This document shows, piece after piece, positions 8,410 through 20,080 of a stretch of DNA of 64,000 nucleotides (position 1 is the stretch's first letter; each line of letters starts with the position of its first letter). This stretch comes from Paragemmobacter amnigenus. GTDB taxonomy: Bacteria; Pseudomonadota; Alphaproteobacteria; Rhodobacterales; Rhodobacteraceae. The stretch covers positions 62,001-126,000 of the forward strand of contig NZ_JAAATX020000011.1 in NCBI RefSeq assembly GCF_009908265.2. The letters are read 5' to 3'. The translations under genes and the position numbers were made by a program. Below the pieces are notes generated by a model that was not told the origin of the DNA, did not search any database, and saw nothing but the letters and a program-made list of their open reading frames with translations.

Positions 8410-8484
8410 TGGAGCGGGCGATGAGATTCGAACTCACGACCCTAACCTTGGCAAGGTTATGCTCTACCCCTGAGCTACGCCCGC
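8410..8484 (-). tRNA. tRNA-Gly(GCC), copy 1
   Basis: Complete 75-nt cloverleaf including an encoded CCA: acceptor GCGGGCG/CGCCCGC, D arm GCTC..GAGC, anticodon arm TAACC-TTGCCAA-GGTTA with anticodon GCC, and T arm GTGAG-TTCGAAT-CTCAT. Identical to the second copy 285 bases away. It reads glycine GGC/GGU codons, which are abundant in this genome, not least in the RTX repeats. Confidence 0.97.
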
Positions 8485-8694: not shown

Positions 8695-8769
8695 TGGAGC
8701 GGGCGATGAGATTCGAACTCACGACCCTAACCTTGGCAAGGTTATGCTCTACCCCTGAGCTACGCCCGC
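8695..8769 (-). tRNA. tRNA-Gly(GCC), copy 2
   Basis: Identical in all 75 positions to copy 1, including the encoded CCA and GCC anticodon. Own promoter upstream and own terminator downstream. Confidence 0.97.
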
Positions 8770-15061: not shown

Positions 15062-15176
15062 GCCGCGATTTCTGACACAGAAATCGCGGCGTTTTCTGCA
15101 CGCAGAAAACGGGGCCAGACGTCGGGGGTCCGATTTCTGCGTCAGAAATCGGCGCGTTTCCTGCGTCAGGAAACGC
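15062..15176. repeat. Cluster of four variable-arm palindromes
   Basis: Four consecutive hairpins: 15062-15090 (13-bp arms, GCCGCGATTTCTG-ACA-), 15090-15111 (CGTTTTCTG-CACG-CAGAAAACG), 15130-15152 (CCGATTTCTG-CGT-CAGAAATCGG) and 15154-15176 (GCGTTTCCTG-CGT-CAGGAAACGC). Arms differ yet each stays self-complementary round a CTG-N3/4-CAG core. They sit between two convergent genes; the fourth contains the stop codon of benE in its loop. Likely bidirectional terminators. Confidence 0.85.
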
Positions 15177-16320
15177 CCTTCCGGGCCAGACGCTCCAGCG
15201 CCCAGATCGCCAGCCCTGCCAGCAGCCCCCAGAAGGCCGCGCCGATGCCTGCGAAGGCCACGCCTGCGCCGGTCACGGCAAGGGTGAGGGTGGCGGGGAA
15301 GCGTTGGTCGGGCGTGGCGAAGGCCCCCGTCAGCGCGCCCGTCAGCGGGCCCAGAAGCGCCAGCGCGACAAGGGCCGTCATCAGCGCGGGAGGCAGGGCG
15401 TTGAGGATGGCGATGACGACAGGGCCGGTCAGTCCCAGCACGACCCAGACCGCGGCATAGGCCAGCCCCACCTTCCAGCGTTGCGACCGGTCAGGGTGCA
15501 CGTCGTCGCCCATGCAGATGGCGGCGGTGATGGCGGCCATGTTCACCGTATGCGCGCCCATGAGCGCGGTGGCCGCCGAGATCAGGCCGGTCACGGTCAG
15601 GGCGGGGGCGACAGGCGGTTCGAATCCTGCGGCGCGCATGGTGGCGAAGCCCGGCAGGTTCTGCGAGGCCATGGTGACGAGGTAGAGCGGCAGGCCAAGG
15701 CCGATCAGCGCGGCCCAGTCGAAGGCGGGTGCCACCAGAACGGGGACGGGCGGCACCGGCGGCAGGGCGGGCAGCAGCGCCGCGCCCGTGGAGAAGGCGG
15801 TGGCAAGGCCCGCGGCAAGCGCGGCCAGCACGGCCAGCGCGGGGTTGGAGAGCCGGACGAGGGCGAAGAGTGCCACCATGGGCGCGACCAGAAGCGGGGC
15901 AGCGGCCAGCGCGCCGGCGCCTTTGAGCACGAAGGGCAGCAGCACGCCCGCCAGCATGGCAGCGGCGATGCCGTCGGGGATGCGCGCCACGAGGCCCCCG
16001 AGCGGGCGGATCAGTCCGGTGGCGGCGATGAGAAGCCCTGCGAGGATGAAGGCGGCCACGCCCTCGGCCATGCCATAGCCGGAGGAGGCGGCGATCAGCG
16101 CGGCGCCCGGGGTGGACCATGCCAGCACCACCGGAACGCGGTGCCATGTGGAGAGCAGTGCCGAGCCTGCCGCCTTGGCGAAGCAGACACCCATCACCCA
16201 GCTTGCCGTCTGGTCCGGTGTCGCCCCCAGTGCGGCGGCGGCGGCGAGGACCAGCGCGATGGTGGAGCCGTAGCCCACGAGGGCCGCGACGAGGGCGGCG
16301 GAAAAGAGGGAGGGGCGCAT
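15166..16320 (-). CDS. BenE-family (benzoate/H+ symporter-like) membrane protein
   Basis: An inner-membrane carrier of 384 residues with about eleven to twelve hydrophobic segments. The motifs SWVMGVCFAKAAGSALLSTWHRVPVVLAWSTPGAALI, LGLPLYLVTMASQNLPGFATMRAAGF and the QNLPG box match the benzoate transporter BenE family. There is no aromatic-degradation gene nearby, so the substrate is uncertain. Start at MRPSLFSAALVA. The last residues GVS and the stop are encoded by the fourth palindrome of the downstream cluster. About 80 bases separate its start from the last CcsR-like hairpin, and no clear terminator intervenes, so read-through from the sRNA array is possible. Confidence 0.85.
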   Translation of the reverse strand: MRPSLFSAALVAALVGYGSTIALVLAAAAALGATPDQTASWVMGVCFAKAAGSALLSTWHRVPVVLAWSTPGAALIAASSGYGMAEGVAAFILAGLLIAATGLIRPLGGLVARIPDGIAAAMLAGVLLPFVLKGAGALAAAPLLVAPMVALFALVRLSNPALAVLAALAAGLATAFSTGAALLPALPPVPPVPVLVAPAFDWAALIGLGLPLYLVTMASQNLPGFATMRAAGFEPPVAPALTVTGLISAATALMGAHTVNMAAITAAICMGDDVHPDRSQRWKVGLAYAAVWVVLGLTGPVVIAILNALPPALMTALVALALLGPLTGALTGAFATPDQRFPATLTLAVTGAGVAFAGIGAAFWGLLAGLAIWALERLARKGVS

Positions 16321-16399
16321 CGGTCCTGTCGGGTCTGCTTCGCTGTTGCGGCGGACTATCGGCGGCGGGGATGCGGGATGCAAGCGGCGCAGGACGGAT

Positions 16400-16470
16400 G
16401 CGGCGACCCCGAGAGGGAGGAGGGGGTCGCCGCCTGGTCCGTCCGGCCCGAGGGAGGAGGAGAGGGCCGG
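16400..16470 (-). ncRNA. CcsR-like sRNA unit 5 (most distal)
   Basis: Two hairpins, 16400-16433 (10-bp arms GCGGCGACCC/GGGTCGCCGC) and 16443-16470 (7-bp arms), each with CCTCCTCCC in the loop on the minus strand. Same two-hairpin plan as the Rhodobacter CcsR RNAs. Last unit before benE. Confidence 0.85.
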
Positions 16471-16509
16471 TCGCACATCGTGGGGGGGGGGGCTGCCCCC
16501 GGAAAGGAT

Positions 16510-16578
16510 GCGGCGGTTCCCGGGAGGAGGTGGGAACCGCCGCCGGTCCGATGACCCTCAGGGAGGAGGAGGAGGGTC
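16510..16578 (-). ncRNA. CcsR-like sRNA unit 4
   Basis: Hairpins 16510-16543 (perfect 12-bp arms) and 16553-16578 (6-bp arms), both with CCTCCTCCC loops on the minus strand. Separated from unit 5 by a G-run/C-run hairpin near 16487-16500. Confidence 0.85.
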
Positions 16579-16617
16579 TGTCGCACGGGCGTGGGGCAGG
16601 TGGCCCCGAATGGAATG

Positions 16618-16685
16618 GCGGCGATCCCAGGGAGGAGGAGGGGACCGCCGCAGGTCCGGCAGGCCCGAGGGAGGAGGAGAGGGCC
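16618..16685 (-). ncRNA. CcsR-like sRNA unit 3
   Basis: Hairpins 16618-16651 (11-bp arms, one A-C mismatch) and 16662-16685 (5-bp arms) with CCTCCTCCC loops. A small hairpin GGGGC/GCCCC at 16593-16607, without the loop motif, divides it from unit 4. Confidence 0.85.
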
Positions 16686-16724
16686 CGTCGTACACCGGTG
16701 GGACCGTCGGTCCCGGAATTTTGT

Positions 16725-16790
16725 GCGGCGGTCCCAGGGAGGAGGAGGGGACCGCCGCGTTTCCGTGTCCCCAGGGAGGAGGAGGGGGAC
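16725..16790 (-). ncRNA. CcsR-like sRNA unit 2
   Basis: Hairpins 16725-16758 (perfect 11-bp arms) and 16767-16790 (6-bp arms), loops CCTCCTCCC. The spacer to unit 3 has a GGGACC/GGTCCC hairpin at 16700-16714. Confidence 0.85.
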
Positions 16791-16840
16791 TTCGGATCGG
16801 TTTGGACGTCAGCGCCGGGGCGCGACATCCGAGTCAAAGT

Positions 16841-16908
16841 GCGGCGACGCCAGGGAGGAGGAGAAGCGCCGCCGCTTTTGCCAAGAACCCCGGGAGGAGG
16901 TGGGGTTC
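16841..16908 (-). ncRNA. CcsR-like sRNA unit 1 (promoter-proximal)
   Basis: Hairpins 16841-16875 (10-bp arms, one mismatch) and 16885-16908 (perfect 7-bp arms), loops CCTCCTCCC. It begins only 11 bases after the DUF1127 stop codon, so the whole array must be co-transcribed with that gene and released by processing, as described for the DUF1127-CcsR operon of Rhodobacter sphaeroides. The loop motif equals the anti-Shine-Dalgarno CCUCC of 16S rRNA. Confidence 0.88.
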
Positions 16909-16919
16909 AGCAAGAAACC

Positions 16920-17135
16920 TTATTTGCCATAGGCGGCTTCGTGGGCCACCGAGCGGATGTCGTTGCGCGAGATGCCCAGATCGGACAGTTCGCGGTCCGA
17001 AAGCACGAGAAGCTCGCGGACGGTCTGGTTGTACACGGCGCGGCGGGCGAGGTGCGCTTTGAACTGGGCGACATAGCCCGAGAAGCGGTCAGCCAGCGAG
17101 AAGGACGCGGCGCGGGAAGAGTTTACATAAGCCAT
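16920..17135 (-). CDS. DUF1127 small protein (CcaF1-like)
   Basis: A basic 71-residue protein starting MAYVNSSRAASFSLADRFSG. The C-terminal half, RAVYNQTVRELLVLSDRELSDLGISRNDIRSVAHEAA, is the DUF1127 domain: an Arg-rich helical hairpin with the invariant LSDRELSDLGISR core. In Rhodobacter the cognate protein (CcaF1) heads the operon of CCUCC-motif sRNAs and binds RNA; here it stands 11 bases before the first of five such units, so the same role is likely. An RpoH-like promoter lies upstream. The start at 17135 has a GAGG ribosome site and removes 35 upstream residues of leader. Confidence 0.92.
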   Translation of the reverse strand: MAYVNSSRAASFSLADRFSGYVAQFKAHLARRAVYNQTVRELLVLSDRELSDLGISRNDIRSVAHEAAYGK

Positions 17136-17196
17136 TTCGATCAGCCTCAGTTTGCTACACGGTGTCGGACAGCGTTCTGTTGCGCCGTTAACGGAA

Positions 17197-17224
17197 ACAT
17201 GGGGCAATTGCTGCAGGTGCACAA
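17197..17224 (-). promoter_or_regulatory. RpoH-like promoter of the DUF1127/CcsR operon
   Basis: Minus strand TTGTGC (17219-17224), 14-base spacer, CCCCATGT (17197-17204). The -10 matches the heat-shock sigma consensus CCCCATNT exactly. Expected start near 17190, giving a 55-base leader. In Rhodobacter this operon is controlled by RpoHI/RpoHII. Confidence 0.75.
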
Positions 17225-17392
17225 TAGCCCGCCTCCGCAATGCTGCCTTGCAGCAAATGCATGGCTGGATGTCACAAAAACGTCATTAATTTCATTGGTT
17301 TCGCCCGAAAATTGAGCAAATGGTCAACGCGGCCTTGCCGAGCGCCGCAAAGATGGCGAGGTTTGCCGAAACCTTGTGCGGGAGAAGAACGG

Positions 17393-18466
17393 ATGTCGGT
17401 TTCGCGGGAGTTAATCATGCGGGCTCTGGCCGGTGTCGGCCTGCCGGGCGGCGGCGATCTGGTGTCGCGCGATTTGATTCGCGCCTTGACGGTCGAGGGC
17501 GGCGCGGTGCGCTTTGTGATCGAGGCGGAAAGCCCCGAGGCGGCGCGGGCGCTGGGCCCCGTGCAGGCGGCGGCGGAGGCGGCGGTGCGGGCCGTGCCGG
17601 GGGTTGCATCGGTGCAGTTGGTGATGACGGCGCATGGTCCGGCGGCCAAGCCTGCGGCGCCTTCGCTGAAGATCGGGCAGCATCCGACGCCGCAGCAGGG
17701 CGGGCCGCAGAAGGTGTCGGGCGTGGACCGGATCATCGCGGTGGCGTCGGGCAAGGGGGGCGTGGGCAAGTCGACCGTGTCGTCGAACCTTGCCGTGGCG
17801 CTGGCGCGGCAAGGGCGGAAGGTGGGGCTGCTGGATGCCGATATCTACGGGCCGAGCCAGCCGCGGATGATGGGGGTCAGCAAGCGACCCGCCAGCCCTG
17901 ACGGGAAAATCATCGAGCCTTTGCAGGCACATGGCGTGACGATGATGTCGATCGGGCTCATGCTGAAAGAGGACGAGGCGGTGATCTGGCGGGGGCCGAT
18001 GATCATGGGGGCCTTGCAGCAATTGCTGGGGCAGGTGGCCTGGGGGAAGCTGGACATCCTGATCATCGACCTGCCACCGGGGACGGGGGATATCCAGCTG
18101 TCGCTGGCGCAGCGGACGCAGCTGACGGGGGCGCTGGTGGTGTCCACCCCGCAGGACGTGGCGCTGCTGGATGCGCGCAAGGCGTTGGACATGTTCAGCA
18201 AACTGAAGGTGCCGGTGCTGGGCCTGATCGAGAACATGTCGACCTTCTGCTGCCCCAATTGCGGGCACGAGACGCAGATTTTCGGCCATGGCGGGGTGAA
18301 GGCCGAGGCGGCCAAGCTGGGCCTGCCGTTCCTGGGCGAGTTGCCGCTGGCGCTTTCCGTGCGTCAGGCGGGGGATGCGGGCACGCCGATTGCCGCGACC
18401 GACGCGCCCGAGGCCGAGGCCTATGCGCGGCTGGCGCGGGGGCTGATCGCGGGGGGGATGGCGTAA
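17393..18466 (+). CDS. mrp: Mrp/NBP35 (ApbC) family Fe-S carrier ATPase
   Basis: Cytoplasmic P-loop scaffold or carrier for Fe-S clusters, 357 residues. N-terminal MIP18/DUF59-like domain ([26 protein letters not shown]), a linker, then the deviant Walker [16 protein letters not shown] (from about residue 117), [30 protein letters not shown] and the cluster-binding [10 protein letters not shown] near residues 285-292. Start at ATG 17393 with GGGAGAAG upstream. It stands alone, divergent from the DUF1127/CcsR operon, and precedes a small unknown ORF and the mraZ leader. Confidence 0.95.
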
Positions 18467-19573: not shown

Positions 19574-20080
19574 ATGTCGGAGGCGTTCAGAGGCGAGTTC
19601 ACCCAGAAGGTGGACGGTAAGGCCCGGGTTTCGATCCCGGCGGCCTTTCGCCGTGTGCTGGAGGCCGGAGACCCTGATGCCACCCGCAAGCGCATCGTGA
19701 TCGTCTATGGCGACGAGCGCCGGAAATTTGCGGAATGCTACACCGTCGCGGGCGCGCAGCGTCTGGAGGCGATGATCCGCAAGCTGCCGCTGGGGTCGAT
19801 GCAGCGGCGCCTGCTGGAGCGTAACATGGTCACCCTGTCGGTCACGCTGGAGATCGACGATGACGGGCGGATCGTGCTGCCGCCCAAGGTGCGGGAAAAG
19901 ACGGGGCTGTCGTCCGAGGCGGGCGAGGCGGTCTTTGCCGGCGCGCTGGACACGTTCCAGCTGTGGAAATCCGAGACTTACGAGGCCGAGATCCGCCGCG
20001 CGGCGGAAGAGGAGCTGGCGGCGCTGCCTGCGGACATGGACATCCTGTCGCTTCTGGGCGGCGACGTGCCGGAGGTCTGA
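19574..20080 (+). CDS. mraZ: MraZ, transcriptional regulator of the division/cell-wall cluster
   Basis: DNA-binding protein built of two AbrB-like swapped-hairpin repeats, 168 residues. First repeat FRGEFTQKVDGKARVSIPAAFRRVL and second NMVTLSVTLEIDDDGRIVLPPKVREK both show the family pattern (D.K.R..IP and DD.GRI.LP). The 25 C-terminal residues extend past the core, as in other alphaproteobacteria. First gene of the cluster; GAGGAGG ribosome site just upstream, followed by a GGCC-GGAA-GGCC stem that touches the start codon. Regulated by its own product and by the UpsM leader, by inference. Confidence 0.96.
   Translation: MSEAFRGEFTQKVDGKARVSIPAAFRRVLEAGDPDATRKRIVIVYGDERRKFAECYTVAGAQRLEAMIRKLPLGSMQRRLLERNMVTLSVTLEIDDDGRIVLPPKVREKTGLSSEAGEAVFAGALDTFQLWKSETYEAEIRRAAEEELAALPADMDILSLLGGDVPEV

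Follow-up and report, generated by a model that had tools for sequence, protein, structure and literature searches.

The minus-strand hairpin array at positions 16908..16400 of the window (the whole 64 kb stretch of DNA that was analysed) and the short DUF1127 gene in front of it are, as judged by sequence, the ccaF1-CcsR (‘cuckoo’) operon known from Rhodobacter sphaeroides, a conserved and well-structured locus. Its most likely function is the production of stress-induced, processed sRNAs that would pair with Shine-Dalgarno (SD) regions. Two features go beyond the first reading of the locus and are the parts worth following, namely a third hairpin in the linkers between the sRNA units and a pattern of fixed head and variable tail along the array, though we claim no priority for the linker hairpin.

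Scanning both strands of the window for motif plus stem (score ≥4) gave ten motif hairpins, every one of them on the minus strand, reproducing the ten minus-strand hairpins with motif loops, in five units, of the original prediction. The exact sequence CCTCCTCCC likewise occurs ten times on the minus strand and not at all on the plus strand, with no further copy elsewhere in the window; genome-wide there are 52 copies, ten of which fall inside the half kilobase of the array. All ten hairpins carry the 9-mer CCUCCUCCC on stems of variable sequence, and in hairpin 10 the 9-mer starts at the last stem base, giving a 1-base overlap with the stem. Around these loops short arms of 6-7 bp alternate with long arms of 11-12 bp, so the predicted alternation stands with arm lengths adjusted from the claimed 5-7 and 10-12 bp. 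Tandem spacing was also recovered, though the distance from the start of one short hairpin to that of the next is 103-118 bp rather than 108-116 bp. Unit 1 (CcsR1; 16836..16918) consists of a short hairpin at 16908-16885 and a long one at 16875-16841, both with anti-SD loops. The short and long hairpins lie at 16790-16767 and 16758-16725 in unit 2 (16725..16790), at 16687-16660 and 16651-16618 in unit 3 (16618..16687), at 16578-16553 and 16543-16510 in unit 4 (16510..16578), and at 16470-16443 and 16433-16400 in unit 5 (16400..16470), all on the minus strand. The minimum free energy (MFE) of the array strand is -274.6 kcal/mol (z -10.8), a value as low as which was reached by none of 100 dinucleotide shuffles. 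The MFE structure of the whole array retains the ten motif hairpins, with only 9 bp in the long hairpin of unit 4 and only 5 bp in the short hairpin of unit 5.

The family assignment is given by the Rfam CcsR1 model (RF02791), which matches unit 1 at 16918-16836 over all 83 model positions with 95.7 bits against a cut-off of 65.3. Thus, the covariance-model search confirmed the CcsR call. The same model picks up each of the five units, with E values from 1.4e-24 to 1.2e-4, in agreement with the hairpin scan, and the count of five made originally is upheld, though unit 1 alone is above the Rfam cut-off, units 2-5 falling short of it at 28.2-48.9 bits (E 1.2e-4 to 9.1e-11). Because one of 14 control genomes also gives a sub-cut-off CcsR1 match at E ≤0.001, unit 5 (E 1.2e-4) is assigned by position and structure, not by score. 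No second CcsR locus was found in this genome with the model, the best match beyond the array having an E value of 0.116. Two candidate extra loci (L006 and L007) were rejected as CTCCTCC is present on neither strand, and scattered pairs of CCTCCTCCC on contigs C10, C3 and C13 were rejected since they form no motif hairpin at a score of 4.5.

Related arrays were collected from the genus and from a wider set of named relatives, with hairpins called by a pairing criterion (score ≥3.5). Sixteen of the 17 genus genomes carry the array; the exception, G003 (1.5 Mb), has no CcsR1 match. The genus arrays hold 6-15 motif hairpins with a median, calculated by hand from the counts, of 9: 10, 8 and 8 in G000-G002, followed by 11, 15, 7, 10, 6, 11, 6, 8, 8, 10, 8, 15 and 13 in G004-G016, where the counts for G010, G013 and G014 may be too low because their arrays end near contig ends. 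Complete short-plus-long units number three to seven per genus array. The named set comprises the best 80 of 480 loci by DUF1127 protein, a non-random choice in which several loci share genomes with the genus set and two lie in one record; 79 of the 80 have 1-15 motif hairpins (median 8 of those 79), starting within 100 bases of the DUF1127 coding match, and L113 is the sole locus without a hairpin. In the genus of the Cereibacter flavus record, seven genomes, including that of the record itself, give 3-7 CcsR1 model matches each. When unit number is compared in this way, the description of the array as ‘expanded’ does not hold. Five units, as compared with the four reported for R. sphaeroides, fall within normal variation; unit number is fluid among the best named matches and four is not special. 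A separate observation concerns the relative G004 (L154), in which a hairpin with a ACCTCCTCCC loop, with a motif copy just before it, lies on the reverse strand at 941-976, away from the DUF1127 locus.

The hairpin structure is under selection. In the original prediction this had been argued from the arms GGTTCCC/GGGAACC and GGTCCC/GGGACC, read as compensating changes. That example falls, as these arms differ by an added base pair with no substitution, and since the in-window case is an inserted pair and not a swap, the test of covariation rests on relatives. Once these were added, double substitutions became apparent and the claim that the arms covary was borne out. In 21 rows of long-hairpin stems, picked by hand for their different arms out of 69 long hairpins, 98.7% of cells are paired. 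Paired percentages in the larger set from which these rows were taken are biased upward, because pairing was the criterion for calling hairpins in relatives. Changes on both sides were observed in six of 11 pairs, a number reached by none of 500 shuffles, and none of 500 shuffles reached the covariation score. Nearly all of the hairpins retain the loop sequence.

Tandem units, changes in copy number and G+C-rich palindromes are also what would be expected of a non-functional DNA repeat, made up of mobile palindromes or produced by slippage. However, no other locus in this genome is matched by the CcsR1 model better than E 0.116, 79 of the 80 best named loci have the array behind a DUF1127 gene, and the arms covary. 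Covariation and position largely refute a repeat of this kind, which we consider highly improbable.

The array sits directly downstream of the DUF1127 gene (ccaF1-like, 71 aa; 16920..17135, minus strand), the product of which matches PF06568 with 49.5 bits (cut-off 23.3). The predicted 11-base gap was confirmed, with the stop codon ending at 16920 and the first hairpin running from 16908. Searches of PADLOC and of PDB sequences returned no match for the DUF1127 protein. Ten of the 16 genus proteins were used in the protein alignment, and the frame of G008 differs near the stop.

The element TTGTGC-N14-CCCCATGTT (17195..17224, minus strand), which resembles the E. coli sigma-32 consensus, ends some 60 bases ahead of the start codon. 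The pattern is kept at a constant N14 in 15 of 16 genus arrays when small changes in the -10 element are allowed (TCCCATGTT in G014, CCCCATCTT in G010 and G011), and in the 16th, G004, the -10 element differs at one base (GCCCATGTT). Conservation of this sigma-32-like element at the same spacing agrees with the RpoH-like promoter that had been predicted, and the RpoHI/HII promoter reported for the R. sphaeroides operon of ccaF1 and CcsR in a figure legend of PMC10253847 fits; excerpts of PMC3320616 describe RpoHI/II co-transcription of that operon. Starting 31 bases upstream of the -35 element is a palindrome, TGCTGCAAGGCAGCA (17241..17255, minus strand). Its pattern TGCTGCA-N2-GC[A/G]GCA is found in all 16 genus arrays, at the 31-base distance in the 15 with a promoter match, and this genome contains the form TGCTGCA-N2-GCAGCA three times. 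The palindrome is perhaps the site of a regulator. Further upstream, from window position 19574 onward and approximately 2.4 kb from the array promoter, lies a gene that is mraZ-like by a reading of its translation; the region had no Rfam match at gathering scores. In R. sphaeroides, the UpsM sRNA is derived from the mraZ 5' UTR (PMC7866481). Elsewhere in the window, two tRNA-Gly(GCC) genes (8410-8484 and 8695-8769) have equal model scores and alignments, and start 285 bases apart.

At the other end of the array, no terminator was found after unit 5, as hairpin 10 is without a T-run, unlike the last hairpin of several relatives. No terminator-like site was found on the minus strand in 15100-17500 by a scan limited to loops of 3-8 bases and hence blind to a 12-base loop. 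The last motif hairpin has a T-run in 26 of the 79 relatives' arrays and none in 53, the first number being a lower bound, as two arrays are cut off by contig ends and shorter-motif terminators are uncounted. Although a figure legend in PMC10253847 places a Rho-independent terminator at the 3' end of the R. sphaeroides CcsR operon, this is not taken as a defining feature of CcsR arrays because those 53 relatives are also without a T-run. In some relatives, such as L165 (1504-1775, reverse strand) and L038, the last array hairpin is terminator-like and has the anti-SD motif in its loop. In the gap that separates the array from the downstream gene benE (15166..16320, PF03594), a candidate promoter-like element CTTGCAT...GATAGTC is present at 16354..16384 on the minus strand, and similar CTTGCATCC..GATAGTC elements were seen by eye after some genus arrays.

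The T-run at the last motif hairpin of at least 26 of 79 arrays would also suit hairpins that mainly stabilise the DUF1127 mRNA from its 3' UTR or terminate it, with the sRNAs as decay products. The control of CcsR1 half-life by PNPase reported in excerpts of PMC7866481 points the same way. One or two hairpins would suffice for such a role, however, while nearly every hairpin keeps its loop sequence, and action of CcsR in trans on flhR is described in the available part of PMC8307010. We regard this explanation as very unlikely.

The four internal linkers of the array, folded singly, each form one motif-free hairpin after nine or ten unpaired bases. Linker 1 (16791..16840) has ACUUUGACUC followed by a hairpin GGAUGUC/GACGUCC with an inner GCGC/GCGC, found by folding and by covariation. 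In linker 2 (16688..16724), ACAAAAUUCC precedes the hairpin GGGACC/GGUCCC, and in linker 3 (16579..16617), CAUUCCAUUC precedes GGGGC/GCCCC, both seen in the linker folded alone and in the whole array. Linker 4 (16471..16509; all four on the minus strand) folds into a weaker hairpin of G and C runs. In the whole-array fold, the hairpins of linkers 1-3 are present in both the MFE and the centroid structure, whereas that of linker 4, seen alone and within a larger helix in the whole-array MFE, is absent from the centroid. The linker hairpin is thus clear in three of the four linkers of this array.

Covariation of linker 1 was assessed without G006 and G010, which were dropped on account of length, and hence in 14 of the 16 genus arrays. 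In these, 90.3% of cells pair and sliding the partners destroys the signal. Changes on both sides occur in six of 11 pairs, as many as in only three of 500 shuffles, and the covariation score was reached by none of 500; further pair types show no excess over shuffles (361/500). Folding was extended to linkers of 28-60 bases that are free of CTCCTCC in the named relatives, with the genus here represented by L038-L049 as set by protein identity. As judged against dinucleotide shuffles, 28 of 37 linkers in the genus and 82 of 96 outside it fold at z < -1, some of the latter 96 being a decayed motif hairpin and not motif-free (e.g. L050). Among flank segments, the number at z < -1 is 52 of 346, obtained with mononucleotide rather than dinucleotide shuffles. 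The unpaired stretch is AU-rich: over 133 linkers, positions 4-8 have an A+T content of 63-87%, as against 8-14% for positions 10-12, and the Rfam CcsR1 model terminates within this stretch. The AU-rich stretch and the hairpin behind it may plausibly form a module for RNase E, in which the linker would be the cutting site and its hairpin would help to define the ends.

The units are not equivalent along the array. In a nearest-neighbour comparison of 68 units from the 16 genus arrays, which leaves out G005 against G016 as two very similar genomes, every unit 1 (16/16) and every unit 2 (16/16) has its nearest relative at the corresponding position in another genome. For the 36 units at position 3 or beyond, the nearest relative is in the same genome in 13 cases, at another position of another genome in 16, and at the same position of another genome in seven. 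Unit 1 has a mean identity of 92% across genomes and of 69% to the other units of its own genome. Unit 1 of the present array is 98% identical to that of G005, and the best matches of units 3 and 5 are at 84%. As tail units turn over and units 1 and 2 are fixed in position, changes in unit number seem to come about through units gained and lost in the tail.

Turnover of the tail (13, 16 and 7 of 36) while the loops stay, and the range of 6-15 motif hairpins within one genus, would also be consistent with a dose device or sponge, in which many loops per transcript titrate ribosomes (a 30S-mimic target), Hfq or the DUF1127 protein, with unit number tuned by selection. The binding of Hfq by R. 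sphaeroides CcsR RNAs, and a lower CcsR1 half-life when CcaF1 is raised, both taken from excerpts of PMC8307010, would fit this. Against it, counts differ among close relatives, and the identity of unit 1, 92% across genomes against 69% within, goes beyond what loops alone would need. A sponge is thus a possible but rather improbable account of the array.

Tentative, and less likely than not, is an extension of the sRNA reading in which the repeat unit has three hairpins, two of them anti-SD and the third a linker hairpin behind the AU-rich stretch, serving as a processing module for RNase E and CcaF1, and in which the array divides labour between position-fixed head units 1 and 2, with specific stems and targets, and a fluid tail that merely adds loops. 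The linker hairpin and the fixed-head/variable-tail pattern offer a way to ask how one transcript becomes many sRNAs, and whether the sRNA copies differ in role or only add dose.

The sequence CCUCCUCCC is complementary to purine-rich SD sequences. In this genome, GGAGGAG-N4-9-ATG occurs 75 times, as compared with 19 for the reversed pattern, an enrichment that does not show regulation because GGAGGAG before ATG is a strong ribosome-binding site anyway. The complement of the full 9-mer is not enriched before ATG in the genome (2 against 2 in the control). Most of the 32 sites for the 7-mer that were inspected (L118-L149, two overlapping) were judged unconvincing as gene starts. Seven proteins from these sites were run against Pfam, and one had no Pfam family. 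Matches to YceG and LpxB begin inside the Pfam profile. Four true-looking starts belong to a periplasmic binding protein, an aldehyde dehydrogenase, an FAD-linked oxidase and an acetyl-CoA-synthetase-like enzyme, which are candidate targets only.

We are confident that the ccaF1-CcsR operon gives rise to a stress-induced transcript from which RNase E-processed anti-SD sRNAs are made that lower the translation of transport and metabolic mRNAs. The predicted RpoH-type promoter would drive, under stress, a single transcript that encodes the RNA-binding DUF1127 protein ahead of the five sRNA units. RNase E, aided or modulated by the DUF1127 protein, would then cleave the AU-rich linkers between units, with the linker hairpin marking or protecting the cut ends. 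The freed two-hairpin sRNAs would expose CCUCCUCCC loops for pairing with purine-rich SD regions, and this pairing would reduce translation of the transport and metabolic mRNAs during stress. The present analysis contributes sequence, structure, covariation, gene order and conservation of the promoter; what we infer is that the operon behaves in this genome as it does in R. sphaeroides, together with the class of targets and the part played by the linker hairpin. In R. sphaeroides, the CcsR RNAs are cleaved by RNase E and then processed by PNPase (excerpts of PMC7866481). The sources, as far as excerpted, disagree on CcaF1, which promotes CcsR maturation in PMC10253847 and interferes with it when raised in PMC8307010.

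Among known systems, AbcR1/AbcR2 are likewise tandemly encoded sRNAs with anti-SD-like loops that act on transport mRNAs, but there are just two of them, their loops are similar and not identical to those of NfeR1, and the available text of PMC10746234 mentions no DUF1127 gene. NfeR1 (alpha-r14), SmelA075 and SmelA099 of Sinorhizobium meliloti also carry CCUCCUCCC in each hairpin (excerpts of PMC10746234 and PMC3927594). Excerpts of PMC10746234 describe silencing of ntrB by the anti-SD loops of NfeR1, with repression lost in a mutant of all three loops. These sRNAs differ in having three or four hairpins each and, for NfeR1, a promoter of its own, and no DUF1127 gene is mentioned in the same excerpts. 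The closest system is CcsR1-4 of R. sphaeroides (RF02791; formerly RSs0680a and homologues) in the ccaF1 operon, compared here by its published description in parts of PMC10253847, PMC3927594 and PMC3320616. RSs0680a has two hairpins with anti-SD loops (PMC3927594, in part), and short DUF1127 genes often adjoin CcsR-like sRNAs in alphaproteobacteria (PMC10253847, in part). The present array differs from the described one in having five units instead of four and in that a T-run terminator was not found. Linker hairpins are a feature noted in the present array, R. sphaeroides CcsR being represented here by descriptions alone. As far as those descriptions extend, the two operons share the leading 71-aa DUF1127 gene, the tandem two-hairpin units and the CCUCCUCCC loops, and the promoter, of RpoH type there, is predicted to be so here.
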